Virus record (IMG/VR): IMGVR_UViG_3300030419_005943
Coordinates: 1 to 20,827 of that record
Origin: a virus
Length of the DNA stretch: 20,827 bases
Direction: 5' to 3' (one strand)
A model generated the notes under the pieces. It had not been told where the DNA came from, made no database searches, and worked only from the letters and a program-made list of their open reading frames with translations. This document shows positions 1 through 20,402 of this stretch, piece by piece. The stretch's first letter is position 1, and each line of letters begins with the position of its first letter. Position numbers and translations under genes: made by a program.

Positions 1-74
1 TCTTGTGGTTCATCTGCTACTCTATCATCCTCACAACTAAATAATAATAATAAAAATAAAAGTAATTTTTTCAT
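1..74 (-). CDS. Lipoprotein, N-terminal part only (runs off the window)
   Basis: The reverse complement of the first 74 bases starts with ATG one base after the TAA of the 428-residue gene and stays open for 24 codons to the window edge. It reads MKKLLLFLLLLFSC followed by EDDRVADEPQ. This is a short basic N-terminus, an all-hydrophobic core and a lipobox (L-F-S-Cys, Cys14), so signal peptidase II processing and lipidation are expected. Two Asp and a Glu directly follow the Cys. In Bacteroidota, acidic residues at this place act as a surface-export signal for lipoproteins (family knowledge; applying it here is inference). The ribosome binding site is weak (GGGAT) and lies in the end of the upstream gene, so translation is probably coupled to it. 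The function of the mature protein cannot be judged from this fragment. Confidence 0.75.
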   Translation of the reverse strand, partial: MKKLLLFLLLLFSCEDDRVADEPQ

Positions 75-75
75 T

Positions 76-1362
76 TTAAAATCCCATAAACTGATAGTTA
101 AGCCCTAACTTGATATCGTATGCTGGTCTTTCCCAGTAGTACAAATATCTACCTTCAGCAAACACTCCAAGATTATCTTTGAGTTTTACTCCGAACAATG
201 CACCTAAATCATAATCGTTCCAATCTGCCCAATCACTTTCTAAATACTCAAAGTCATATGGTTCTTTACCTTCTTCTAAATGTGTCTGATATGATGCTGC
301 ATTTTGATAAGAATGTTTTGTATGTCCATAATGTATTGGCATCCAATTTCCCCAAGCATGCATCCACCAATCATCCGAATAATGATAAAAGTCAGCACCT
401 AACACAAGTGATGTTTCACTCTGATATCCTAAGTTCTTCTTAACACCATCTATATAAGTTTCTAACATACCTGGAAAATGATATAGAAAATATTCTCTAT
501 CAGTATAAGCAAATACTCTACCATCAGCATCTCTCCACAACCAATCATGTCCCCAATATTCACCTTCACCATTCCAAAAAGGACCGTCACCTTCAATTGG
601 CACCCATTCACCATTTCGGTATTCTAATAGTTCTTGTTGTATCCAGTTTCCATCTTCATCAACCATAGTTGGATCATACCACATATTATCATCAATACCA
701 AAAGCATCTTCAGCAAATGCCCACCATTGACCTCTATACCAAGTGGTGTCAAGAACCATAGCATCAAATCCATATACAGGATGTTGTCTGTGTTTAAATC
801 CAATTGATATATGAAGTTTATTTCCTAACGCTTCGGGTGTAAGATGAACTCTTAAATCACCCTGTACATAATTAATATCTTCCAATCCTAATTCTGTCCA
901 CCCAACTTTAGCCATTAGAAAATCACCAATGTATCTTAACCAATATTCTTGATTAACATATTCATTTCCCCATTGACGACCTTGAGAATGTTTTATTAAA
1001 TATTCCCAACCCTTTACTGGACCAAATGTAGCACTCTCATTGTAATTAGATTCAGAACCATCGTACCAGCTGCCACCCTTACCAGCAGACTTAACTCCAT
1101 GTTTTGCTTCATATTGGAATCTACCAATTTTACGAAGTCCAAATGAAGTTTGAAAATCAGGTTTTAGTTCACCCTCAGTCCGTTCCACCATTAAATCTCC
1201 AGTAGATAAACCACCTACAATAGCAAACCTATCGTCTTTATATCGAGGTGCATTTAAACTAAAACTTGAATAAGCTGTGGAATACTTAAAAAAGTTAGTA
1301 AAAAAGTTCTGACTAAACAAAGATGAGGATAGCAGTATCCCTAATATAATTTTCTTTAACAT
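76..1362 (-). CDS. Secreted outer-membrane beta-barrel-like protein, 428 aa
   Basis: Residues 1-18 (MLKKIILGILLSSSLFSQ) form a signal peptide with a likely cut before or after the Gln. The last residues, LGLNYQFMGF, alternate polar and hydrophobic/aromatic positions and end in Phe, the usual recognition signal for the BAM machinery. The body is rich in Trp and Tyr (more than 20 Trp), with alternating beta-strand-like stretches such as residues around 125-190 and 310-345. An acidic, Trp-rich segment at about 200-290 may be an extracellular loop or plug. These features suggest an outer-membrane barrel. The exact family is not recognised. The start is supported by AGGAGA seven bases upstream (1369-1374). 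It follows phage tail genes and a small membrane protein and precedes a lipoprotein, so it probably changes the host surface late in infection. Alternative: a virion-associated or purely periplasmic protein. Confidence 0.7.
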   Translation of the reverse strand: MLKKIILGILLSSSLFSQNFFTNFFKYSTAYSSFSLNAPRYKDDRFAIVGGLSTGDLMVERTEGELKPDFQTSFGLRKIGRFQYEAKHGVKSAGKGGSWYDGSESNYNESATFGPVKGWEYLIKHSQGRQWGNEYVNQEYWLRYIGDFLMAKVGWTELGLEDINYVQGDLRVHLTPEALGNKLHISIGFKHRQHPVYGFDAMVLDTTWYRGQWWAFAEDAFGIDDNMWYDPTMVDEDGNWIQQELLEYRNGEWVPIEGDGPFWNGEGEYWGHDWLWRDADGRVFAYTDREYFLYHFPGMLETYIDGVKKNLGYQSETSLVLGADFYHYSDDWWMHAWGNWMPIHYGHTKHSYQNAASYQTHLEEGKEPYDFEYLESDWADWNDYDLGALFGVKLKDNLGVFAEGRYLYYWERPAYDIKLGLNYQFMGF

Positions 1363-1368
1363 CTGTTT

Positions 1369-1374
1369 TCTCCT
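1369..1374 (-). promoter_or_regulatory. Strong ribosome binding site for the 428-aa secreted protein
   Basis: AGGAGA on the minus strand lies in a 23-base spacer, seven bases before the ATG at 1362. It is identical to the site before the 97-aa gene. Most tail genes upstream instead use sites inside the preceding coding sequence. Confidence 0.7.
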
Positions 1375-1385
1375 AAGTTAATATT

Positions 1386-1679
1386 TTATGCAACCATCCA
1401 CCAAGCTGCTCCAATTTCTACAAGCAAGTCAGCTCCAGTATTATATGCCCATTTCTTCTTTGTCCCATAGGTTTCTTCAGTACCTTCTACGATATACTCA
1501 AATATTTCCCATGCAATTCCGATAATCACCACCCATAAAACTGCCCATAAATCAGAACATCCTAACCATTGAGCTACCTTTGCAATAAACAGACCAGCTG
1601 CTATATGATAAGATGTCCAATGGTCAAGTTGACCGCTTTCTAATTGCCAATTTACAAATGGTTGTAGTGGGTTATTCAT
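1386..1679 (-). CDS. Small three-helix membrane protein, VanZ/YjdF-like motif spacing
   Basis: This 97-residue protein has three hydrophobic stretches at about residues 24-41, 44-64 and 82-97. Charged and polar residues sit at helix edges in a recognisable order: D19/H20 and H25 with G29 before and in helix 1, W57-E58 and E61 at the end of helix 2, and N80, D84 and G90 before and in helix 3. The order 'D..H..G', 'WE..E', 'N...D.....G' resembles VanZ-like and YjdF/DUF2238-type membrane proteins, but the protein is much shorter. No lysis motif is evident, yet its size and place after the tail genes also allow a holin-like role. The AGGAGA site at 1686-1691 supports the ATG at 1679. The function is uncertain; the membrane location is well supported. 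Confidence 0.75.
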   Translation of the reverse strand: MNNPLQPFVNWQLESGQLDHWTSYHIAAGLFIAKVAQWLGCSDLWAVLWVVIIGIAWEIFEYIVEGTEETYGTKKKWAYNTGADLLVEIGAAWWMVA

Positions 1680-1703: not shown

Positions 1704-2519
1704 TTAGTAATCCATTCTTATTAAAAATTTCATTGGTATTTTTTTGCTTTTTGGTATTGGTTTTGATAATCTTGCATATCCCACCAAACTTTTCTGTTCA
1801 TCATACAGACCAACCTCGGTTATGTAAGTTGGAAAATCACTACTGGTTAAATGATTTTTTAACTGACCTAAACCATTAGTATTAAATACAGTTAAATTAG
1901 TTGTGTTATTTAACTCGTTTGGTTCAGTATCACAAGACCATTCATAAGTATTAATAGTATTTATACCTTGATATTCAATTGAATAATTTCCACTAGTTAC
2001 CTCAGTATAATTATTCGATCCATCAAATGATGCTGTTTCTGTAATTGCAACCACACCGACATCATAAAATATATTTCCAACATAATTGTCCGATGAAGAA
2101 AGTGGTGTTACTGATTGAGAAAAAGTAGTATTTGTAGAATAAAGATTACCAGCACTATCATCAACTATCCTAGCACCAGTTGCCGTGTCGGTTAAAACAA
2201 AACTACCTCTCTTTATACCCTCATTAAATTTACTTTGCGGTATAAAAACCACAGAACCAGTATCATAAAATTTATGTAAAAATGTATCTCTACCAGTTCC
2301 ATCCTTTCCTATATTAAATGATTGATTGAAAGTTGCTTCGTCTGTTGAACCACTTAAATAAAAATTTACACGAGCAAAGTCATAATAACTTTTAGATACT
2401 TCGTTAGATGAGTTATTTAAAAACTGATGTCGTGTTAGGTCGGCCTGAGTTAAATTAAATGACTTGTGAGCTTTATACTCGTAAGTACTCTGATTTTCAG
2501 GTGTGAATTGTTTATACAT
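1704..2519 (-). CDS. Fibre-like virion structural protein, 271 aa (paralogue of the preceding gene product)
   Basis: Three signatures that I associate with marine phage structural proteins appear in order: VVFIPQSKFNEGIKRGSFVL at about residues 90-109, an Asp-Asp...GNLY segment, then VGNIFYDVGVVAIT at about 146-159. Near the C-terminus, at about 232-251, is EVGLYDEQKSLVGYARLSKP, followed by a final beta-strand ending in Tyr. The EVGLYD motif resembles the 'EIGLFD..G.LIAVA' signature of tail-collar/tail-fibre proteins. The same block order and end occur in the 353-aa product encoded immediately upstream, so the two are diverged duplicates. The ATG at 2519 lies nine bases after the previous stop, with a weak ribosome binding site and two other ATGs in other frames just before it. 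A role in the fibre or fibre attachment is inferred, not shown. Confidence 0.75.
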   Translation of the reverse strand: MYKQFTPENQSTYEYKAHKSFNLTQADLTRHQFLNNSSNEVSKSYYDFARVNFYLSGSTDEATFNQSFNIGKDGTGRDTFLHKFYDTGSVVFIPQSKFNEGIKRGSFVLTDTATGARIVDDSAGNLYSTNTTFSQSVTPLSSSDNYVGNIFYDVGVVAITETASFDGSNNYTEVTSGNYSIEYQGINTINTYEWSCDTEPNELNNTTNLTVFNTNGLGQLKNHLTSSDFPTYITEVGLYDEQKSLVGYARLSKPIPKSKKIPMKFLIRMDY

Positions 2520-2528
2520 TCCATGACA

Positions 2529-3590
2529 TTAGTAAGTCAAACGAACCTTGACGATTGCTTCAGAACTAAAGTTTTTATTGATTGGTGAACTAAGTCTTCC
2601 TACTGCCAATAAAGAATTTTGATTGTCGTATAATCCAACCTCACTAATATAAACTTGTGGATTAGTTACCATATCGTTATGTCTTATGGTGTAATCTGAA
2701 CCACTCCAAAAGGTTAAATTTTGTGATAGATTATATTCACTTGTTTTAGCTCTACAAAAATAATCATAAATATATTGTTGTTCTTCAGACCTCAAGGTTA
2801 CTGAACCTTTTTGTAGTGCTAGTGTCAACTTATTGGCATTATCTACCGCATCAGCAACTCTAGTATCAGCAGTTAAACCTGTACCAGTAAAACCTGTATG
2901 TCCACTTGAGCTTTGAACTAAACCAGCATCGCCAGGTAAACTTGATGATAAAGCAGTAGCACTCAATACCATTAATCCAGCATCAGGGTAAAAGAAACCA
3001 TAGGTTTTGGATGTATATACCGTATTTACAGTACCAGCAGAACCAGACACAATATTATATCTTGGTCCAAACGGAGCAGATTCTGGATTTACAGTTTTAC
3101 TATCATCCGTTAAAACTAAAGAATTACCAAGACCAGCACTACTTGAACCAGATAATGTCATTGTCCAAGTTCCTGGATTTAATCTATCTTTCATCTGTAA
3201 TCTTTCTGCAGAAACAATATAAACATCTGATTGGCTTACAGCACTTGAACCATTAGTCCCATCAATCATAGCCCATCCCTGTCCATCTCTTAGTTTTTCA
3301 GCATTTGTTTCGACAAGGTTATAAAATTGTTTATAGATAGCTTGAGTTGTTCCCTCTACAGTTGTTGACTCTTCAGCACTACCACTACCACCTATGTGAC
3401 CATAAGTTACACTAAGGTGGTCTTTAGAATTATATTGTAAATTATAATAATAAGATTTTTGTGTAGAAGAAAGTGACGATGTACTAAAATTTGAACCTGC
3501 TAAAGTCCCAACACCACCATCAAAAAATCCATTGGTTACAGTTATTTGGGTTATTATAGTATCTTCTGCTATATTAAATGGTTTCATCAT
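2529..3590 (-). CDS. Fibre-like virion structural protein, 353 aa (paralogue of the next gene product)
   Basis: The protein is rich in Ser, Gly and Thr. It has the same block order as the 271-aa neighbour: DVYIVSAERLQMKDRLNPGT then TWTMTLSGSS at mid-length, a Tyr/Phe block YGFFYPDAGLMVLS, and near residue 316 EVGLYDNQNSLLAVGRL, followed by a last strand ending in Tyr. The C-terminal motif resembles the signature of tail-collar/tail-fibre proteins. Two ATGs are adjacent (3590 and 3587). AGGA lies eight bases before the first, so 3590 is preferred. It follows the 222-aa gene after a 13-base gap. A role as a fibre or as a baseplate-fibre connector is inferred. The receptor is unknown. Confidence 0.75.
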   Translation of the reverse strand: MMKPFNIAEDTIITQITVTNGFFDGGVGTLAGSNFSTSSLSSTQKSYYYNLQYNSKDHLSVTYGHIGGSGSAEESTTVEGTTQAIYKQFYNLVETNAEKLRDGQGWAMIDGTNGSSAVSQSDVYIVSAERLQMKDRLNPGTWTMTLSGSSSAGLGNSLVLTDDSKTVNPESAPFGPRYNIVSGSAGTVNTVYTSKTYGFFYPDAGLMVLSATALSSSLPGDAGLVQSSSGHTGFTGTGLTADTRVADAVDNANKLTLALQKGSVTLRSEEQQYIYDYFCRAKTSEYNLSQNLTFWSGSDYTIRHNDMVTNPQVYISEVGLYDNQNSLLAVGRLSSPINKNFSSEAIVKVRLTY

Positions 3591-7300: not shown

Positions 7301-9081
7301 GGAAGATGATTACCACTACTATCTCGTATACCATAACAAAAATTACTACCACTTAATGAAGCGGATAAAACATTTGATCCTGATAATATTTCAAAATCTC
7401 CAGAATTATTTGCAAAATTTATCTCATCAATATCAAGACCTGATATTGGTCTAAAATAATTTTGTTGAGCTCTAAAAATATATCTTCTGTATTCAGATCC
7501 AGTTGATGTTGGATTTAAAATAGCTGAACCGCTAAAGGCATTATATGGTATTTTTCTATCTTTAGCATAAGTGTAACCATTGAAAGTAGAATCATACTCT
7601 CTGTTTGCATCATTAGCATCTGATGAAAAACTATATGTATTATTACCTGTTCTTTCCCCACTTAATAAAAAGGATAAATAAATCCAATCGTTTGTATTAT
7701 AAAAAGGAGAATTTTCTACATTATAAATATCAGTAAACATATGTAGTCTTGAATTAGAAGAATCTGTTTTAAAATGATATACGGAATCAAATCCTTCTAC
7801 TTGCATAGAACTAGATATTTCACTTGTAAATCCATGTTTGTTATCAAAATTATTTCCTGCTAAATTCGAACCTATACCAGGTGCAGATGATGTCGAATAA
7901 CTCTGACCATCGGTGTACATAAAATGTTCATAGTGAGTAAAATTATTTTTTATACTTCTTATCTCTTCAAATAAATTTTTTCTTTTAGAAAGAACACTAC
8001 TATTATTAGTAAAAGATAAAGATGAACTTATTTGTGATAATAATCCTTCTAGTTTGGCAGCTTTAGTTTTAAAATTTTGTAATTTAGATTTAGCAGAACC
8101 AAAAAACACATGATTATCAAATTTACTATAATTAACATTTAAATTTATATCTTTCTTTAAATTAGTTAAACTTTCAATGATGTTTATACCAGTAGAACTT
8201 GATATTTCATTATAGTTTTCATAAGAAGATGAAATAAAACTAGAATCTCCTAGATAACTTTCATCTATGGTCAAACCCAAACCACTTATTGCTAAACCTT
8301 CTCTATCGATAAAAAATATAGTTTCATTTTGAGAAGATAAAAATTTATTTGATATAAAAAAGTTCTTTTCTAATCTTGATATATTATTAGGTAATGGTTC
8401 ATTTAATTTTAAAATAAAAGTATTTTTATTACTAGTAATTCTATCAAGTGCATATCCATTTATCGGAATTAAACGAGATTCGGTTAATTCTAAATAAGAA
8501 TTAAATTGATATACACCATCACTATCTCCACCATTTAAAAAAGCAGTAATTTGATCTATATAGTTGGCATCAAAACCATCTGAAAAAATTTGTTCATCTA
8601 CTTCTATTCTTATTTCTTTCCTACTAGGTGATATTTCAGAAATATATAATTCTTGATTTTCTCTAAACCTTGTTATAAAATCAAATTGTAAATTATAATT
8701 ATCTTCACTAAAACCAGCTCGGTCTAGATATTCATTTGGTTTTAAAAATATTTGTTGATTTGATATATAAAAATCAATATTTTCTTGTAAAATATCAGAA
8801 TCTTGAAATGTACCAAGTTCTGTAAAAACAGATGTTTTTATAAATGGAAACCCTCTACCATCATTTACCCCATTTAGTTGATAATGTATATTCCCAAAAG
8901 ATTCTTTATCGGTAACACCATTATTATCAACCCACCAATTCCAAGCACTACCTCTTGTTTTTTCTACCTCTGATAAATCAAAATAACTATCTACATAGAT
9001 TTCACCAAATGATGTGAATTCATAACTGCCAGATGAAATCAGTTCTAAAGTATCATCATTATATTGTTTTAATATTTCCAT
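4330..9081 (-). CDS. Giant tail/baseplate protein: gpI-like tail domain plus LamG-like domain, 1583 aa
   Basis: Residues 1 to about 690 form a Ser/Asn-rich region with many SGS-type turns and no recognised enzyme motif. Residues about 690-830 match the P2 gpI tail-protein pattern: LPEFLRTGDEHKVLRDFV, then LLRSYIDNYHNF, ILPIIGNTIGYDL and IYKTKGTQEGINTILNLYGY. In P2, gpI is a baseplate component near the tail tip. Residues about 855-1105 form a LamG/concanavalin-like beta-sandwich, with an exposed-strand pattern and an ending of LIYHYELSEG type. Residues about 1318-1380 hold two or three degenerate repeats of 21-22 residues. The C-terminal 140 residues contain GRTLFFKTDSDGNITYPIN and an IYKGTQHDGTNP segment. 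The start overlaps the previous stop by one base (TAATG). It is likely both a structural part of the baseplate and a surface-binding part of it. P2 gpI itself is much shorter, so this is a large fusion. Confidence 0.85.
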   Translation of the reverse strand: MEILKQYNDDTLELISSGSYEFTSFGEIYVDSYFDLSEVEKTRGSAWNWWVDNNGVTDKESFGNIHYQLNGVNDGRGFPFIKTSVFTELGTFQDSDILQENIDFYISNQQIFLKPNEYLDRAGFSEDNYNLQFDFITRFRENQELYISEISPSRKEIRIEVDEQIFSDGFDANYIDQITAFLNGGDSDGVYQFNSYLELTESRLIPINGYALDRITSNKNTFILKLNEPLPNNISRLEKNFFISNKFLSSQNETIFFIDREGLAISGLGLTIDESYLGDSSFISSSYENYNEISSSTGINIIESLTNLKKDINLNVNYSKFDNHVFFGSAKSKLQNFKTKAAKLEGLLSQISSSLSFTNNSSVLSKRKNLFEEIRSIKNNFTHYEHFMYTDGQSYSTSSAPGIGSNLAGNNFDNKHGFTSEISSSMQVEGFDSVYHFKTDSSNSRLHMFTDIYNVENSPFYNTNDWIYLSFLLSGERTGNNTYSFSSDANDANREYDSTFNGYTYAKDRKIPYNAFSGSAILNPTSTGSEYRRYIFRAQQNYFRPISGLDIDEINFANNSGDFEILSGSNVLSASLSGSNFCYGIRDSSGNHLPYFFPSQYDPEGLGLGHTTDVFASVLPQGDLFPIRTNTTGSYETFVTDIKVCKVNPTNIHPFSNIYRPTSGSYAGSSEWNDWYDTMETIAENYDTNNINSLVNNLPEFLRTGDEHKVLRDFVNMLGEQFDLLRSYIDNYHNFYSLGYKNPNSIPDNILPIIGNTIGYDLLNPHTSNLQDYLSSTKGDEVSDKKAISSLWTKILNNIIYIYKTKGTQEGINTILNLYGYDSTTFNLTEYGGSTSEHNPSVVTNNVANDLDSGIKNTTGNVSFLERLEPLRSLNLSSGSSYIALDWYSNDAEPNGVEFIFRSTGNTQIQTIARSSGSNDNWDIRIIPSGSSTTTGSLQLRINNTEHAGSSISNNSISMSTDYINNINDGKYFNVMLQRNAVTSSYEVTQSYHVFIGRKDGDKITDIQHISMSSFDVDVNKNFTTASGQPNNNLLFGEVMTGSIAQIRAWDSYISMSKFKQHILNYNSIVGGSITSARDNLIYHYELSEGKNATTLKDISSKNKVKSFDKTVSEQPSLHLKSNVSNVKNYKFQVRGTDAIKSNKQTLLGSNLKVVGNLDSKLSTLKLPMKNNTDIPEVSNVNKIGKTFSYVDAIDSVIINAMSDFVLDDYLDDGVNDGIYNDLLTLRKQIITEKDIKVDVNRNLLAVESHTDNPNYIKEIELSIPAKTKLEFSYEVKNDILFRSKTKKATLETKLNPNKVIGSTNLTEPSVNINFNEKKYEKTVDVLTDEISITAINNENLKEQTINILSDVGITSTANKNLKTNESTPLNIVDLSNTKNQTVFNVTLGNFTDLLLGTKNEFYKNHGKSENKTFFKSSRLGNNNDYNTFRYDDRFNFREIGDIEQFFPITGSYKTRTELAAKQPFNHHDNFRHFGNRYYVDSGSGYTYNSYFGNDDATVDGRMVGRTLFFKTDSDGNITYPINHYFKVGTSKDVINNLIYKGTQHDGTNPTFFDPELDTSPKIPAYTIDIGGSDTTKKLKVIR

Positions 9082-9095
9082 TAAAATGCCTGTTC
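9078..9095. repeat. 18-base direct repeat at a gene junction, copy 1
   Basis: The plus-strand sequence ccattaaaatgcctgttc is identical to 11183-11200. Read on the minus strand it encodes the last residues EQAF, the stop and the overlapping ATG of the next gene. The flanking bases differ on both sides. Confidence 0.85.
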
Positions 9096-11186
9096 ATCAC
9101 TTATAGTTTCTAATAAAGGTGTTCTCATTACACTATCTTTTCTAATTCTACCATCTTTAGGTTGATTCACTCCATAGTCCCCAATAAGAATTCCTTGTTC
9201 ATCTGTACCGGCTTGGTTTTGTAAAAATAAAAATTCATTATTTGATGGATTAATATCAATGGTACATTCGTCATCTATTATAAATATATCAGTAGCTAAA
9301 CTATTGATTGGTAAAGTATCAGAACCTGAAACTATCCATTTGAATTTATCACCACCAATAAAATCATAAATGTCTCTTGGTTTTGAAAAAACCCTTGTCT
9401 GTCCTAAATCTAATTGCCCAGGCCTTTCTCCTAAAAAATTATTATTTATTTTTTTTACATAATCTTTTGCTGATGCTTTTTGTAGATAATCTTCTGAAAC
9501 AAAATTATCGTCCTTTACTATTTTAGATACCGATGAGTGGTATTGAGATCCTTTATCAAATCCACCTATTATTGCTTGATTATCTCCAATAGGCAAAAAA
9601 TTAAAATCAGTTCCACCAAATACAGCAAAATCTTGAGATTGTAAAAGTCCATCATTTACAACTATGTTTTTTGTTACAAGGTAAGTTTGTGTTAAAAAAG
9701 ATTTACTTTTGTCATATCTATAAACAACTATTTTTATAGACTTAACTCCAGGAGTATTGTAAACATGACTTACCGAGTCTTGTATTGGAACTGCCTCTCT
9801 ATTTTGTGATGCAAACCATTTTTGTAAAAAATAGTTATCGCTTTCTGGATATTCCTCAACATCATAAAGATTAAAAAAATATGTATTCTGTATATCCGTA
9901 TTTGATAATAATTTTTTTTCATCACCCCATTGAATAACTTGATAGGTAAAATAAGAATTATCTATACCAAAATCTATACTCTCAATAAATTCAGCTATAT
10001 CATCTTGACTTGATTCAGGATCAATATAGAAAAGATTAGATATGTCTGATAAAACTTCTGATGATATTTCATTCTGAAATTCCAGATTATCAAATATTTG
10101 TACATTAAATGAAACTTCTATGGGATAAGAAGTATCATCATACTCGACTGATTTTTCTTTACTGTCATAATATAAAAGTTCATTTTGATTATCTGTTGTG
10201 GTATCAATTAAAAATAACTCATCAGTAATCTGTATATTATCAATGATACTAGAATCATCAAGAAAGTAATTATACTCAAACTTTGGAGCACCTAGTTTTG
10301 CTAAAAAATTAAAGGTTGGTTCATCGTCTATAGCATCAGAATTAAAACCATCATCTAAAATATCTAGTTCCCATAGGCCATCTTCGTTTAATTGTGGAGT
10401 AGATGATACATTACTTAGTATAATATGACTACTTTCACTAGGATTTCTAAATCTAAGTTCTCTTGGAAAAATAAGTTCGTGTGTAGGATTAAATCCACCG
10501 CCAGTACTCATTTCAATATAATCAAATTCCCTTTCAATAGTTAAATTTCTAGTCCCACCAAAATCAAATTCAAATCTAAAGCGATTGTCACCTTCTATTT
10601 CTCTTATGTATGCTAAATTATCATTGTTAGGAAATTCAACATTAACATCAATCTCTAATTCTTGTCTGAATTGTCTGTTTTCCCAAGTACCACCACTTCT
10701 ATCACCACCTGAATAATAATGTCCCCAAATCACCATATGTCTATCTTGTACTACCACAGATAACCTTTCTAAATCACTTTGAGTATCATCATAAGAGTAT
10801 TGAATATCTGGTACATTATCAGGATTATTTAAATCAACATCTTCAGGTTCAGTAATAGTATCAGTTAGAATATCACCATAAACTGCATTTTGACCTTCTG
10901 TACCTGATATCAATTCTCTTTTATATCTAATTCTTCTAAGGGGATTAGGTCTTTCAAGTATACCTTCATTAAACCCGATACGAACATCCCTACCTCTTGG
11001 ATCTGAAGTTGGGATTTGACCATTATCTAATGTAAACACCCTATTATCTTTTATAATTGAATTCCAATTCCCTAAAGAAAAATTTTCTAGGTTATCATTA
11101 TTCAATCCAAGCTCTTTTGTAGAACCATTTGGATAAACACCTGGAGTTTTCCAACTAGGATATTTTTCTTTTTTAGAATATGCCAT
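9081..11186 (-). CDS. PKD-like structural protein, 701 aa
   Basis: No overall family is recognised. Residues about 410-500 look like a PKD-type beta-sandwich: YQVIQWGDEKK (W420) in the place of the usual 'WdfGDG', and later HVYNTPGVKSIKIVVYRYD, which fits the PKD closing pattern 'H.Y..pG.y.v...v'. The N-terminal region (MAYSKKEKYPSWKTPGVYPN) is polar, with an Arg-rich segment NPLRRIRYKR at about 82-91. The middle is acidic. Near the C-terminus are FLGERPGQLDLGQTRVF and GDKFKWIVSG. The last four residues, EQAF, are shared with the gene product encoded just upstream. Both ends of this gene lie in the 18-base repeats. It overlaps both neighbours by one base (TAATG). A baseplate or fibre-base role is inferred from position. 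Confidence 0.75.
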   Translation of the reverse strand: MAYSKKEKYPSWKTPGVYPNGSTKELGLNNDNLENFSLGNWNSIIKDNRVFTLDNGQIPTSDPRGRDVRIGFNEGILERPNPLRRIRYKRELISGTEGQNAVYGDILTDTITEPEDVDLNNPDNVPDIQYSYDDTQSDLERLSVVVQDRHMVIWGHYYSGGDRSGGTWENRQFRQELEIDVNVEFPNNDNLAYIREIEGDNRFRFEFDFGGTRNLTIEREFDYIEMSTGGGFNPTHELIFPRELRFRNPSESSHIILSNVSSTPQLNEDGLWELDILDDGFNSDAIDDEPTFNFLAKLGAPKFEYNYFLDDSSIIDNIQITDELFLIDTTTDNQNELLYYDSKEKSVEYDDTSYPIEVSFNVQIFDNLEFQNEISSEVLSDISNLFYIDPESSQDDIAEFIESIDFGIDNSYFTYQVIQWGDEKKLLSNTDIQNTYFFNLYDVEEYPESDNYFLQKWFASQNREAVPIQDSVSHVYNTPGVKSIKIVVYRYDKSKSFLTQTYLVTKNIVVNDGLLQSQDFAVFGGTDFNFLPIGDNQAIIGGFDKGSQYHSSVSKIVKDDNFVSEDYLQKASAKDYVKKINNNFLGERPGQLDLGQTRVFSKPRDIYDFIGGDKFKWIVSGSDTLPINSLATDIFIIDDECTIDINPSNNEFLFLQNQAGTDEQGILIGDYGVNQPKDGRIRKDSVMRTPLLETISDEQAF

Positions 11187-13792: not shown

Positions 13793-14917
13793 TTATGATG
13801 GTACAGTAACACTTAAGTCACCTATCTTGTAACCTCTAGCCCTTAACAGTTCTGATTTACTAATAATTTCTACTTTACATCTAGCACCAAGACCACTATT
13901 AGAAACTATCTCGTCATTTTCATCAATGTGATTTAACCAATATTGTCTGTTTGTAAAATATGGAGAACTATTATCAAGTTCTAACTCATTAATATTTGGA
14001 TTATAGGTAGCACATATAAAATACCATTCATTTAAATTATCAGTTGGTATTTGTGGAAAAGATGTATGAACTCTTTCATGGATATTATTAATACTACGAT
14101 TTGATAATCTACCTAATGCACCACCAAATTCACCAGTGTGTCCCCAATGATTGTCTCTAAGTGTACCATCACTCTCTCTAACAACCAAACTTATATACCT
14201 ATAGTAATTTCCATCATACTGATTTATTCTTGTTTCTAATCTAAATCCTTCTCCATTTTCTTCTAAAGGATTACCATAATTAAAAAGAGTTCCCTCTGAT
14301 GTTTTACTGACAAATCTCACCCACATAGTTATTGTAAAACCATCTGTTAAGTAAGAATCATTTTTTTGAAACTCTAATAAACCATCATTAGGAGCTTTTA
14401 TGATAATTGCTTGATTTGGTTTTCTTATTTTTAGAAATCCATTTGCTTTATTTTCATATACGGGTCGTTGGTCAGGTATTTCTTGAATTATATTATCAAC
14501 ATCACCTAGATAAGTATTTAATCTATCTCTCATAGACTCAATAGTTTTATCTTGATTATTAGTATCACCTTCGGCGTGTTCATTTAACCTTGTTATATAT
14601 GCCTGCCTATTATTTGGATTTGCACTAATTCTACTTTGTATATCTAACAATTCAATATTCTCATCTATATATTCACCAGCACCATCTAAATTTAAATCTT
14701 GAAAATTAGGTTTATTTCCTATCAATTCATTAAATTCCGAGAAAAAATTATTTATTTGATCTTGTCTATTTGTTTGTACAGGTAATAATTCAAATATATT
14801 AGTATCTAATATATCTCTAGCCTTTTCTGGATTAATCTTTTCACCAGTCTTAATAGTTGTCAACTGACTCAGATTTAGAACATTTAAAAAGTATCTATCT
14901 CTTACAACAGTAGCCAT
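13793..14917 (-). CDS. LamG/concanavalin-like structural protein, 374 aa
   Basis: Residues about 15-150 are mostly helical and polar (for example RDILDTNIFELLPV and TIESMRDRLNTYLGDVDNII) and may form a coiled or trimerising stem. From about residue 160 a LamG/concanavalin-A-like fold follows: GLLEFQKNDSYLTDGFTITM, WVRFVSK, GTLFNYGNP, RYISLVVRESDG and EWYFICATYNP are the typical strand signatures of this fold. Such domains often bind glycans, but no specific binding residues can be assigned. The start overlaps the previous stop (TAATG), with GGAG seven bases upstream. It is preceded by the HxH-motif protein and followed by the PKD/DGSC protein. Likely an adsorption or baseplate-decoration protein; role inferred from fold and position. 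Confidence 0.8.
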   Translation of the reverse strand: MATVVRDRYFLNVLNLSQLTTIKTGEKINPEKARDILDTNIFELLPVQTNRQDQINNFFSEFNELIGNKPNFQDLNLDGAGEYIDENIELLDIQSRISANPNNRQAYITRLNEHAEGDTNNQDKTIESMRDRLNTYLGDVDNIIQEIPDQRPVYENKANGFLKIRKPNQAIIIKAPNDGLLEFQKNDSYLTDGFTITMWVRFVSKTSEGTLFNYGNPLEENGEGFRLETRINQYDGNYYRYISLVVRESDGTLRDNHWGHTGEFGGALGRLSNRSINNIHERVHTSFPQIPTDNLNEWYFICATYNPNINELELDNSSPYFTNRQYWLNHIDENDEIVSNSGLGARCKVEIISKSELLRARGYKIGDLSVTVPS

Positions 14918-15914: not shown

Positions 15915-16871
15915 TTACCCAACTATTTCTTGATTTTCTTCATTACTTATTAATCCATTATCTACAATTACAACAAGCCACCCATTTCCATTTTCATCCA
16001 ATTGATATTCATATGTTTGTCCATTGATTGAAGTTTCACCAGAATATGTAATCAATTCTGGAGGTAATGGGTATTCTAAACCCGTTGAAGTAATTTCTAA
16101 TTTTTGTGAAACATCAATTTCAAATCTTAATTGGTTACCACTTTCTGCCCCCTCGACACCAGTATCTAATATTATATCAAGATGACTAAACGAAACAATA
16201 TAATAATTTTTAAAAAACCCCTTTGATGGATCAGATAAAGTTACAACCATCCCCTCTGTTACTGAAGTTATTAAGTCTGGTCTATTAATAGAATCAATAT
16301 CACAAGTCCACATCTTATTATTATCAGTAGTCATTGTAACTGTACCTGTAATATGACTATCGGTAGTTACATCCTCATTAGTAGTCTCTTGAGTAATCTC
16401 TGTTGTAATGGACTGTGATACATCTAAACTATAATCAACCACTTGTCCATATTCAGCACCATTCACCCCATCAGTTAAAGTAACCATTCCACTACTTAAA
16501 TCAACATCTTGTATAACTTTATTTTCAAAGTAACCTTCTGATGAAATAGAAACATTCATTCCAGGTTGAACTAAAGTAAGTAAGCCTGAATTATTATAAG
16601 TAGTCATCTGCCATAATGTATTATCACTAGTTGTCATAGTGGCAGTACCAGTTAATAAATTCTCATCACTTGTCTGTTGCTGTTGAATAGTAGTCTGCTG
16701 TTGAGTAGTAGTTTGTTGTTGAACTCGTTGTTCATCTACTAATGGTAAATTTTGATTTTGTACTCCCAAATGTTCTTGAGTTGAAGTCGATTCTCTTTGA
16801 TTAGGTACGGTACTAATCGACTGTTCCCCTTGAACTCCAAAATCAGATGCTGGAGTGTAATCATCTGGCAT
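15915..16871 (-). CDS. Structural protein with duplicated beta domain and Gln-rich linker, 318 aa
   Basis: A polar N-terminus leads into a Gln/Thr-rich linker at residues 48-66 (RVQQQTTTQQQTTIQQQQT type). Two homologous domains follow, at about 72-154 and 173-257. Each opens with TGTxTMTT, has a Trp shortly after (W87, W188), continues with GMxVxxS...G(Y/F)F.N..I, then a Gly-rich GV.GAE.G segment, and closes with (Y/F)...DVSQ. This is clear tandem duplication. The last 60 residues contain a small strand-rich module (YSGETSINGQTYEYQLDENG). The start has an excellent GAGGAG site six bases upstream. No known family is assigned. The flexible linker and repeated beta domains suggest a fibre, spike or decoration protein of the baseplate. 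Confidence 0.75.
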   Translation of the reverse strand: MPDDYTPASDFGVQGEQSISTVPNQRESTSTQEHLGVQNQNLPLVDEQRVQQQTTTQQQTTIQQQQTSDENLLTGTATMTTSDNTLWQMTTYNNSGLLTLVQPGMNVSISSEGYFENKVIQDVDLSSGMVTLTDGVNGAEYGQVVDYSLDVSQSITTEITQETTNEDVTTDSHITGTVTMTTDNNKMWTCDIDSINRPDLITSVTEGMVVTLSDPSKGFFKNYYIVSFSHLDIILDTGVEGAESGNQLRFEIDVSQKLEITSTGLEYPLPPELITYSGETSINGQTYEYQLDENGNGWLVVIVDNGLISNEENQEIVG

Positions 16872-16873
16872 TT

Positions 16874-18007
16874 CTAACTCCTCAGTATAAATTCAAAATC
16901 GTTATCATATATTATTGTTTGATCGTCATCATGATTAACCTTTATCAATATCTTGTAAGCACGATTTGGTTCAAACGCATTTAGGTCTTGTTTAAAATAG
17001 TTAGAAGTTGAATCACAACTCATTGTTGTATAAGCACTAAACGGAACAACTGATTCATTCGTTGCCATATCAATGATAGAATAAGATCCAGAAGTCCAAG
17101 GTATATAACTACCACTTACAGTCTGAACAGATGTAGTGAAGCTTTTTTGTATATATCTTTTACGAGCACCAAATCTAAACTTAACGGTTTCATTTTCTTT
17201 ATATGATTCTCTAAAATGTATTGGATACAAATAATTTTCAGCATCACCACTAATATCTAAAGCAGTTAAACTACCAGTATTAGAACCAGTTGCTGGTAAG
17301 TGATCATCCCATTTCAATTCCAACTTAGGTGAATAGATTGTATTGGTTTGCCTTGAGAAAAATTTAAGGTCTTCAAAACTACCACTTGATGTTTCTCTAC
17401 TACCAGAAAATCTTAGTAACAACCCATAATTATTATTCGAACCATCAAACCATTTACCAGCAATAGAAGTTATATCCATATTAATATCAGGTGACTCTGA
17501 TGAAAAGGATTGTGTTACTTCATCACCAGCAATATAACTTGCACCTGTACTACTGGTTACTACTCCAGCTGTCCATAGTGAACTTTCTAAATTCCATTCA
17601 ACCTCTGCTGCACCATCTCTATTTTTTCTATATTTCCAACTACAACCATCAGTTGTTTTTGGATCATCAGATTCTTTACCTACACCCTCATCCCAAGATT
17701 CAGAAAGTGGATAAGCAGCAATAGTATAATCTTCACTTAAACCACTTGTACCTTCTGTTTCATATAGTCTTAAATTTAATTTGTAGGTATTTGGTAAAAC
17801 TGAAGAACTGATATAACTTTCGATTTCATCAACATCGAACTGAAGCAAAATACGAGTTGGATAATGAAAATTTCTATTCCAAAATGCTTTCTTTAATTCA
17901 AGTATTTCATCTTGTCCAGCATTCTTATCTTTAAAATCTTCGCCCGTAGTTTCATTTGAACCACTACTAATAAAGGCATCTTTGGTTGTAAAAAAATATC
18001 TATGCAT
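16874..18007 (-). CDS. DNRLRE-like structural protein, 377 aa
   Basis: Residues about 1-235 resemble the DNRLRE/CBM96-type beta-sandwich. After the N-terminal FFTTKDAFIS come RILLQFDVDEIE, then LNLRLYETEG, YTIAAYPLSESWDEGVG, DITSIAGKWFDG, YGLLLRFSGSRE and FFSRQTNTIYSPKLELKWDD. This fold normally occurs in extracellular proteins and some carbohydrate-binding modules. Residues about 250-377 are a second module (HFRESYKENETVKFRFGARK, SIIDMATNESVVPFSAYT, FEPNRAYKILIKV). I have seen this arrangement in other marine phage structural proteins, though without a named function. The ATG overlaps the stop of the gp6-like gene (TAATG). It sits where gp7 or gp8 would follow gp6 in T4, but resembles neither. 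A baseplate-periphery role is inferred. Confidence 0.75.
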   Translation of the reverse strand: MHRYFFTTKDAFISSGSNETTGEDFKDKNAGQDEILELKKAFWNRNFHYPTRILLQFDVDEIESYISSSVLPNTYKLNLRLYETEGTSGLSEDYTIAAYPLSESWDEGVGKESDDPKTTDGCSWKYRKNRDGAAEVEWNLESSLWTAGVVTSSTGASYIAGDEVTQSFSSESPDINMDITSIAGKWFDGSNNNYGLLLRFSGSRETSSGSFEDLKFFSRQTNTIYSPKLELKWDDHLPATGSNTGSLTALDISGDAENYLYPIHFRESYKENETVKFRFGARKRYIQKSFTTSVQTVSGSYIPWTSGSYSIIDMATNESVVPFSAYTTMSCDSTSNYFKQDLNAFEPNRAYKILIKVNHDDDQTIIYDNDFEFILRS

Positions 18008-19923
18008 TATATCACTTTCCCGTAAATATCCTTATTAGGATTTTTTAATTCAAATACAGCAGGAGTAACCGATGGTCTATATATACCATCTTGTAAAGAA
18101 TTTTCAAAATTGTATTGAAACCCATAAGTTGATTCATGTCCACTAACACCATCATAGGTATCACCATCTGCTTGATAATAATAAAGTTTTCTATTATTAC
18201 CATAATCACTATTACCATTTTGAAATAATTTGAGTTCTTTTACCCCAACAACCCCATCTAAACCTAATATATTGTATTGAAGTTCATTAATGTTTATTAC
18301 TTGCTTAAATTGCATTTTTTCTATTCTAAAAAAGTTCTTTATAGTATCTATAACTTCCAACTTAACAGAGGTTGAATTAAATCTTCTATCACAATTTACA
18401 ATAAAATGAACTCCAAAATTAACAACATACCCAGAAAAGATATTTTCTTGTAATGTATATCCGAAATTTAATGAATCATTTATTATTCTAAACTGATTAA
18501 GATATGTTTCTAAATTTTGTAAAACAAGATGTGGAGTTTGAACAAGATTTTTATCTTGATTGTAAGATAGTGTAGAAATTAATAATGAACCACCATCCAT
18601 TCTATCAACATAACACTTAGCTATGTTACCAAACTTTGCTGGAAGATTTTTTATTCTTGCCGTATAATCTTCTTTTGTAACACATCTCAATTGAGAAGCA
18701 AAAAATGCACTAGCATTATTCTTAATTTCATCTACAGTTTGACCATCAGTTCCACCCACACCAGGTTCATCATTTGATACAGTAATAGATTCATTAGAAT
18801 TTTTTATTTCTGTTAATTCACCCACTTGTATATTTGAATCATACCCACCACCAACTCTATAAGTTAAAGTTAATATCGTATTATTTGGAACTTCACCTAA
18901 ATTTAAATTATTTGAAATACCTGATCCTATACTGTCACTTGCATTTGCAACATCTTCCCCATTAATTGTAACACCAACTTGTTCCACTGGATCTACTGCA
19001 GAACCTGTGTTACTGTATCTAAATAAACCATTACCGAACTGAATTTTATAAGCTTGATCGTCTTCATCAAAATTAGTTGTAAATTTTTTATTTGTTTTTA
19101 TATATTCAGCAACATACGGTATAGGTATTGATGATAATGAATCACTATAAGGATCTTGATTATAAGCACTATCTCTTGCAGCATCATCAGTATAATGAGT
19201 TTCTTTTAAAATTCTATCCTGTGCTAAATAATCAACTTCATACCACTTTTGTCCAGAAGCATCTTTACAATCTATTATTTCAATTAGATTATCTTCACCT
19301 AGATTTATTTCTAAAAATTTAGTTGGACTTGTTATTGTAAATGATTTAGTTTTTGTTTTACCAGATACGGCTCTTACATATCTCGTTAAAGTATACGAAT
19401 CCGCCTCTCCATTTTCATCAAGTGTTGGTGCACTTATTAATGGATCGGATGATCCACTCGATGTAAAATCTATAACATCTGTTGTTTCAAAAAGTATTTC
19501 AGAATTTATATTAGAAGCAATTTGTAAACCACTATCTATTGGAGATGGTACTTCTCCATAATTTGGTGAACCATCACTATTAGCATTAATTGTTGTATTT
19601 ACTTTTAGTTTAACAACCGATGGCGTTTTGTTTGGAGTTTTATATCCAAGAAACTCAGCCAATCTTCTTACATTTCTTTTTTCAGTTGCAGTTGATAAAA
19701 GGTTCTCTTTATAATTGTAATCAATGTAATAAGAAAGAACATCACCAACATAACTTGATAATTCTATTAACATCATACCAGGTGATGTTTCATTAAAATC
19801 TTTATATGTATCTGGAAAATAAGATTTTGTATATTCAATTAAATCAGCTTTAATTGTACTAAAGTCCTTACTTGTGTAATTTATGTTAGTTGGTACTAAT
19901 TTTTGTTTTTCTGTATATGCCAT
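18007..19923 (-). CDS. gp6: Baseplate wedge protein, gp6/baseplate-J-like, 638 aa
   Basis: The N-terminus matches the gp6/J family: INYTSKDFSTIKADLIEYTK at about 14-33, then NETSPGMMLIELSSYVGDVL at about 44-63 and EKRNVRRLAEFLGYKTP at about 81-97. The centre has the typical block PGVGGTDGQTVDEIKNNASA at about 384-403 followed by LRCVTKEDYTARIKNLPAKF. In T4, gp6 dimers form the ring of baseplate wedges that changes shape when the sheath contracts. The length is close to that of T4 gp6 (660 residues). It lies directly after the gp25-like gene, two bases from its stop, with GGAG ten bases before the ATG. The gp25-gp6 pair is a conserved neighbour pair in contractile tails. The family call is firm. 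Confidence 0.92.
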   Translation of the reverse strand: MAYTEKQKLVPTNINYTSKDFSTIKADLIEYTKSYFPDTYKDFNETSPGMMLIELSSYVGDVLSYYIDYNYKENLLSTATEKRNVRRLAEFLGYKTPNKTPSVVKLKVNTTINANSDGSPNYGEVPSPIDSGLQIASNINSEILFETTDVIDFTSSGSSDPLISAPTLDENGEADSYTLTRYVRAVSGKTKTKSFTITSPTKFLEINLGEDNLIEIIDCKDASGQKWYEVDYLAQDRILKETHYTDDAARDSAYNQDPYSDSLSSIPIPYVAEYIKTNKKFTTNFDEDDQAYKIQFGNGLFRYSNTGSAVDPVEQVGVTINGEDVANASDSIGSGISNNLNLGEVPNNTILTLTYRVGGGYDSNIQVGELTEIKNSNESITVSNDEPGVGGTDGQTVDEIKNNASAFFASQLRCVTKEDYTARIKNLPAKFGNIAKCYVDRMDGGSLLISTLSYNQDKNLVQTPHLVLQNLETYLNQFRIINDSLNFGYTLQENIFSGYVVNFGVHFIVNCDRRFNSTSVKLEVIDTIKNFFRIEKMQFKQVININELQYNILGLDGVVGVKELKLFQNGNSDYGNNRKLYYYQADGDTYDGVSGHESTYGFQYNFENSLQDGIYRPSVTPAVFELKNPNKDIYGKVI

Positions 19924-19925
19924 TT

Positions 19926-20402
19926 TTAATATGCTCCACCAGTTTCTTGTGTTGATAACTCCCCACCACCAACGCCATTAAATGTAACTTGAACGCTTTC
20001 TAAAGAATTAGGTGTTCTTTTTATATTAAATTCTATATTTAAATTAATTTGATTTAAATCATTTCTTTGATTTATATTTATATCCCTTAATTCAACAAAA
20101 GGCAACCATGTTTGAAACATATCCACAATATTATTTTCTATTTGTACAGTTAAATCTTCTGTCATTTGTTCAAATAAAAGTTGTCTTAAATTCATTCCCA
20201 AGTTAGGTTGGAATACCCTCTCACCTTGATTGGTCTGTAAAAGAAGTTTAATATTATTTTTTATTGCATCTACAGTTGTTTTTGTAGTATTAAAATACCC
20301 ATCACCGCCAGCAACTCTACCAAAAGGAAAGTCAATTCCCACAGATACTCTTGTATCTTGGTCTTCTACAAATCTGTCTTTTCTTCTATCAAGTATTGGC
20401 AT
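19926..20402 (-). CDS. gp25: Baseplate wedge protein, gp25/GpW-like, 158 aa
   Basis: The family pattern is clear: VGIDFPF near residue 21, TTVDAIKNNIKLLLQTNQGE at about 42-61, RVFQPNLGMNLRQLLFE at 62-78, then an amphipathic helix and the strand INQRNDLNQINLNIEFNI. The GER...P..G block (60-69) is the place of the conserved EPR-type core of the gp25 family, which forms the inner part of the baseplate wedge and helps nucleate the tail sheath. The length is slightly above T4 gp25 (132 residues). The start overlaps the stop of the preceding gene by one base (TAATG), with GAGGA nine bases upstream. The following gene is the gp6-like partner. Confidence 0.92.
   Translation of the reverse strand: MPILDRRKDRFVEDQDTRVSVGIDFPFGRVAGGDGYFNTTKTTVDAIKNNIKLLLQTNQGERVFQPNLGMNLRQLLFEQMTEDLTVQIENNIVDMFQTWLPFVELRDININQRNDLNQINLNIEFNIKRTPNSLESVQVTFNGVGGGELSTQETGGAY

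Follow-up and report, generated by a model that had tools for sequence, protein, structure and literature searches.

A new family of predicted phage-encoded outer-membrane barrels that covaries with a downstream envelope module

We propose that a 428-residue protein encoded on the minus strand of an uncultured ocean phage (76..1362) is the outer-membrane part of a phage module that remodels the envelope of its host, itself most likely a member of the Marinimicrobia, probably by way of a type IV pilus/type II secretion-type machine; we assign this reading a probability of about 0.5. The window, by which we mean the whole stretch of DNA analysed, is the 20,827-base virus record IMGVR_UViG_3300030419_005943, and its open reading frames read as a minus-strand series of baseplate and tail genes. 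The protein is a member of a real, new and conserved family, and its class had been called correctly in a preliminary description of the window.

What identifies the product as an exported barrel? The gene is preceded by a Shine-Dalgarno sequence (AGGAG, 1370..1374, minus strand) about 8 nt before its ATG, and the first 18 residues, MLKKIILGILLSSSLFSQ (1309..1362, minus strand), form a signal peptide with a putative cleavage site at its end. A test for Lys or Arg followed by a hydrophobic core was passed by 70 of 71 distinct N-termini of the family. At the other end the protein finishes in Phe, and 59 of 76 distinct complete family members likewise finish in an aromatic residue (42 Phe and 17 Trp). 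Tryptophan makes up 5.1% of the protein (22 of 428 residues), with ten of these residues lying between positions 200 and 310. The signal peptide, the barrel-type C-terminus ending in Phe and the Trp-rich body that had been pointed out earlier are all borne out by these data. The mature chain reaches a maximum 19-residue hydropathy of 0.68 and contains no hydrophobic helix. Searches of Pfam (E≤1), the PHROGs and PDB sequences returned no match to the protein. Its length, its approximately 14 predicted strands and the lack of a Pfam match at E≤1 set it outside the Ail/Lom/OmpX family, and the lack of any Pfam, PHROG or PDB sequence match sets it outside the general, OmpC-like porins.

AlphaFold models were calculated from alignments of 29 and then 62 rows, and with the larger alignment the pLDDT rose from 66.0 to 71.9 and the pTM from 0.60 to 0.66. 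The model contains about 14 predicted strands, nine of which (residues 29–37, 41–50, 58–65, 69–80, 118–130, 133–145, 149–158, 163–174, and 183–195) precede and five of which (residues 313–328, 332–346, 378–395, 398–409, and 412–424) follow a large Trp-rich loop or plug formed by residues 196–312 (427..777, minus strand). A second long loop, residues 81–117 (1012..1122, minus strand), is predicted with low confidence (pLDDT about 32, and below 50 throughout residues 80–114) and is highly conserved (mean entropy 0.48 bits). By the same entropy measure, residues 196–224 and the C-terminal strands are also highly conserved, and conservation is low in residues 225–262 and 347–377. The predicted last strand and C-terminal tail, RPAYDIKLGLNYQFMGF (79..129, minus strand), resembles a beta-signal, ends in Phe and shows the strongest hydrophobic alternation of all the strands (3.08). 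Over all predicted strands, alternation equally high was seen in 7 of 300 shuffles, and several individual strands show little of it.

Foldseek comparison of both models with the PDB yielded, among the matches listed, nearly exclusively outer-membrane channels and barrels, including BcsC, FapF, NanC, OmpG, NalP, chitoporin, and OprB. The global superposition is poor: the PDB barrels align with TM-scores of 0.18–0.33 by query length and rmsd values of 9–27 Å. Because these global scores are low, we describe the protein as predicted to form a barrel with about 14 strands, and do not claim a demonstrated closed barrel. Given the signal peptide, the aromatic C-terminus, the absence of a helix from the mature chain, the predicted strands and the Foldseek matches, insertion into the host outer membrane, as had first been suspected, is by far the likeliest outcome predicted for this exported protein.

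Viral contigs were scanned with different queries, which gave at least 50, 135, 148 and 131 matches, respectively, and after merging, the family counts at least 84 distinct loci, from uncultured phages. Identity to the window protein ranges from 86% down to about 47%, and the mean column identity of the family (66–71% over 29–62 distinct sequences) is far beyond chance. One locus, L016, carries tandem barrel genes (8001–10557); the second copy is 47% identical and belongs to a divergent subfamily shared with L128, L130 and L131. A tblastn search of INPHARED with the window barrel and with a divergent member found no match, and the MshEN-like neighbour described below was likewise without a match there. 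On the bacterial side, a short-pattern scan of GTDB genomes and a profile search of six pilin-bearing genomes found no barrel, and the barrel profile, which detects seven of seven viral records used as a control, found no relative among 245 genomes from the Marinimicrobia (the phylum of genome G009). The barrel is therefore, as far as seen, phage-borne. We found no description in the literature of this barrel family or of phage-encoded pilins of the kind discussed below.

On the tail side of the barrel, a gp25 gene (19926–20402, minus strand) and a gp6-like wedge gene (18007–19923, minus strand) were assigned through Pfam and PHROG matches, and the nearest cultured relatives of the wedge protein, from Microcystis phage Mel-JY01 and the Flavobacterium phages immuto, are 30–34% identical to it. 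Within the tail region, the genes at 16874–18007 and 13793–14917 (minus strand) have weak, sub-cut-off matches to CBM96 carbohydrate-binding and laminin-G/ConA-like domains. Closest to the barrel are two genes, for protein A (353 residues, 2529..3590, minus strand) and protein B (271 residues, 1704..2519, minus strand), that gave no match in Pfam and PHROG searches and are called tail-fibre-like from their position and their EVGLYD-type C-terminus. Between them and the barrel gene lies a gene for a 97-residue membrane protein (family tm97; 1386..1679, minus strand), which has an AGGAG before its start and relatives near the barrel in about one third of the loci. A heliorhodopsin assignment for this protein was rejected, the Pfam match (E 0.0003) falling below the cut-off.

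The order at this end of the window is therefore two tail-fibre-like genes, the 97-residue gene, the barrel gene and a lipoprotein gene of which 24 codons fall inside the window, with gaps of 24, 23 and 1 bases from fibre-like gene B onward; a scan for promoters and terminators gave hits no more frequent than in shuffled sequence. This arrangement corrects the preliminary description in two respects. The barrel gene does not lie directly downstream of the tail fibre genes, since the 97-residue gene intervenes, and it does not end the operon, since the lipoprotein gene (1..74, minus strand) begins one base beyond its stop codon and runs off the window. The 24 visible residues, beginning MKKLLLFLLLLFSCEDDRVADEPQ, include an LLFSC lipobox. 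In the related locus L022, a near-identical lipoprotein N-terminus is found and the gene continues, and a lipobox is present in 51 of 55 distinct relatives.

Everything beyond residue 24 of the lipoprotein lies outside the window and is extrapolated from relatives whose barrels are 47–86% identical, and the following counts refer to the 30 distinct loci whose downstream flank spans 6 kb. An MshEN-like protein and a thioredoxin-like protein are encoded downstream of the barrel in 30 of 30, and the lipoprotein in 22 of 30; a membrane protein with POPDC and cyclic-nucleotide-binding domains (14 of 30), pilins (11 of 30) and a holin-like gene with three TM segments (9 of 30) are less constant. The N-terminal 60 residues of the MshEN-like protein match the N-domains of PilF, PilB and MshE in profile comparisons with PDB chains (E 5e-11 to 3e-5). 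The Pfam MshEN model (PF05157) does not match the protein, so the assignment rests on these profile-to-PDB matches. A single MshEN-like unit is followed by a TM helix, detected in 64 of 65 sequences, and a coiled coil, and there is no ATPase domain. The thioredoxin-like neighbour is exported and has a thioredoxin fold by profile search (E 5e-18), and the CxxC motif of active thioredoxins is absent from all 59 distinct sequences. An example of the POPDC and cyclic-nucleotide-binding protein is found in L105 (14481–15131; Pfam E 2e-14 and 2e-16). Separately, L094 encodes near its pilins an exported protein that carries a C-terminal TonB domain (16482–16805; E 1e-11).

The pilins point to a host. 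The Pfam N_methyl model matches two phage pilins (E 2.6e-9 and 3.4e-6) and does not match a third, the SLAEF pilin; N_methyl matches occur in five of six long records. In L109 (13058–14965) and L105 (15343–17411), three to four pilin-like genes stand in series, like the pilin series of Marinimicrobia. Among GTDB contigs, 21 carry a relative of the SLAEF pilin; most are titled (Neo)Marinimicrobia, the best match is 69% identical, and several of these loci, including L216, carry genes whose translations read as PilB/PilC-type proteins together with a matching pilin series. In a maximum-likelihood tree the phage and bacterial pilins intermingle. One GTDB contig filed under Alphaproteobacteria SZUA-1021 (L236) has a nuclease, a lipoprotein and a SLAEF pilin like those of these phages and is probably a misbinned phage contig. 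Marinimicrobia (SAR406) are most likely the host, judging from this one gene family; viruses linked to Marinimicrobia have been briefly mentioned before (PMC4533152; PMC10721903). A complete phage-borne pilus or secretion machine was considered and rejected: eight records of up to 131 kb, possibly incomplete, contain no T2SSF or Secretin match and only sub-threshold P-loop hits to T2SSE. Since pilins are present in only 11 of 30 loci, the pilus link fails for some members of the family.

Does the barrel belong to the tail or to the envelope module? A tail gene lies within 700 bp upstream of the barrel in 65 of the 79 distinct loci with enough flanking sequence, so that most related loci have the gene beside tail genes; in two long contigs, barrel and module lie 37 kb (G001, barrel at 25480–26778 and fibre genes at 63558–65678) and 41 kb (G002) from the fibre genes. 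Of the genes compared, the barrel is best conserved, with a median pairwise identity of 73–74%, followed by the MshEN-like protein (63–65%), the thioredoxin-like protein (54%) and the lipoprotein (51%); the tail fibres reach 38–43% and a third tail gene 36%. Mantel correlations with the barrel point the same way: rho is 0.60 for the MshEN-like protein, 0.58 for the thioredoxin-like protein and 0.38 for the lipoprotein (p 0.002, the lowest value attainable with 499 permutations), as against 0.09 and 0.05 for tail-fibre-like proteins A and B and 0.07 for the third tail gene. The module correlations could in part reflect shared ancestry, the genes compared being those of the tail and of the downstream envelope module only, and recombination is probably freer among the tail genes, an effect that by itself could lower theirs. 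From the covariation and from the position in G001 and G002, we conclude that the barrel is not part of the tail cluster: adjacency to the tail is common, but in its evolution the barrel goes with the envelope module. The earlier placement of the gene in a tail operon is not supported.

These measurements bear directly on the roles that might otherwise be ascribed to the barrel. Were it a tail-associated or virion protein in spite of its signal peptide, the operon that it shares with tail genes in most loci would find a ready explanation, but the conserved export signal, the aromatic C-terminus and the predicted barrel fold all speak for another destination, and a protein that evolves independently of the tail genes and can lie far from them makes this idea very improbable. 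Greater weight, if still that of an unlikely alternative, attaches to superinfection exclusion by receptor blocking, in which the adjacent tail fibres would find their receptor masked or substituted by the barrel, acting by itself or together with the lipoprotein. The usual place of the gene behind tail-fibre-like genes recalls that of llp beside the T5 receptor-binding gene (PMC9586334), and the lipoprotein follows immediately. Blocking of the phage's own receptor, one of the roles envisaged at first, is nevertheless disfavoured, since no other gene in the comparison is as well conserved as the barrel (median 73%) and the adjoining fibres are so variable (38–43%); the near-zero covariation with the fibres and the distances in G001 and G002 count against it as well. 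A receptor conserved across all these phages would weaken this objection.

A porin-like auxiliary gene, which would admit nutrients or signals across the infected cell's outer membrane, strikes us as slightly less probable again. Porins and polysaccharide or chitin channels are among the Foldseek neighbours and other uncultured phages encode porin-like barrels, but the protein has no sequence relation to porin families, its Trp-rich segment of 117 residues could fill the lumen as a plug, and a simple pore would leave the constant association with the MshEN-like and thioredoxin-like proteins unexplained. The late-gene position, together with the holin-like gene a few kilobases downstream in 9 of 30 loci, would suit a role in release, in which the envelope would be weakened or fused during lysis by the barrel together with its partner proteins. 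Such a role appears improbable: G001 has, by sequence reading, an endolysin-like gene elsewhere (80229–80705) and small exported gene products that may be spanins (85717–86441), the POPDC protein and the pilins do not fit, and barrels are not known as lysis effectors.

Returning to the envelope module, we propose that the infected host exports the barrel, probably late in infection, through Sec and BAM, in that order, to its own outer membrane. There it would form or serve a module with the outer-membrane lipoprotein, an inner-membrane protein whose PilB/MshE-like MshEN domain and coiled coil would be cytoplasmic, and a periplasmic thioredoxin-fold protein that lacks the redox motif; these proteins may form a physical complex. 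The module most likely alters the surface of the infected cell, probably through the host's type IV pilus/type II secretion-type machine, where an MshEN domain that lacks the motor part could be a competitor of the motor ATPase. Some phages would also bring replacement pilins, without motor, platform or secretin. The likely benefit would be that other phages are excluded or that attachment is changed, and superinfection exclusion by the module is plausible by analogy with phages in which inactivation of PilB serves exclusion (PMC11436027). A bolder version, which we offer tentatively and regard as doubtful, is that a large and widespread group of uncultured Marinimicrobia phages encodes a trans-envelope complex, made up of these four proteins, that attaches to the type IV pilus machine of the host and displaces or reprograms its motor, and that some of these phages feed it phage pilins so that the cell acquires a virus-specified surface.

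What would such a module mean for the biology of these phages? An unnamed, strongly conserved family, present in at least 84 distinct loci, goes together with a constant set of envelope proteins and with host-type pilins. This suggests that, for phages in Marinimicrobia, a phylum for which we know of no cultured phage system, controlling the host surface is a core rather than an accessory function. The set of proteins is concrete, and their interactions as well as their effect on the pilus can be tested.

Finally, phage-encoded outer-membrane proteins are known in a few laboratory phages. In lambda, lom adjoins the tail-tip gene J and, to our knowledge, lacks a comparable downstream module. 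Like the window protein, Lom, of the Ail/OmpX/PagC family, is a phage-encoded outer-membrane barrel, but it is a protein of 15–18 kDa with eight strands (PMC4198210), whereas the window barrel has 428 residues, about 14 predicted strands and no Pfam match. Among viral models (BFVD), Foldseek placed A0A516LKJ4 first (E 1e-23), followed by porin-like phage barrels. This 342-residue viral protein is, among the matches listed, the best in structure and sequence together (24% identity, TM 0.49/0.58) and the only clear homolog outside the IMG/VR family, and it is shorter than the window barrel. The porin-like barrels of uncultured Caudovirales share the same general fold, but with mostly 4–8% identity they belong to no common family with it. 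The T5 Llp and Cor lipoproteins block FhuA, and a lipoprotein is what they have in common with the module. Llp is a phage outer-membrane lipoprotein encoded near receptor-binding genes (PMC9586334); Llp and Cor, however, are small lipoproteins that jam a host transporter, whereas here the phage adds a barrel of its own and covariation between barrel and fibres is absent. Similarly, PilB, PilF and MshE share their N-terminal MshEN domain with the module neighbour, which differs in having no ATPase domain. Control of the pilus by phages has a precedent in Gp05 of D3112 and Aqs1 of DMS3, which inactivate PilB and thereby serve exclusion (PMC11436027). The module resembles these systems in its PilB-like MshEN domain and, in some phages, its pilins; whereas Gp05 and Aqs1 inactivate PilB itself, the module would act through a membrane-anchored MshEN domain and host-type pilins.
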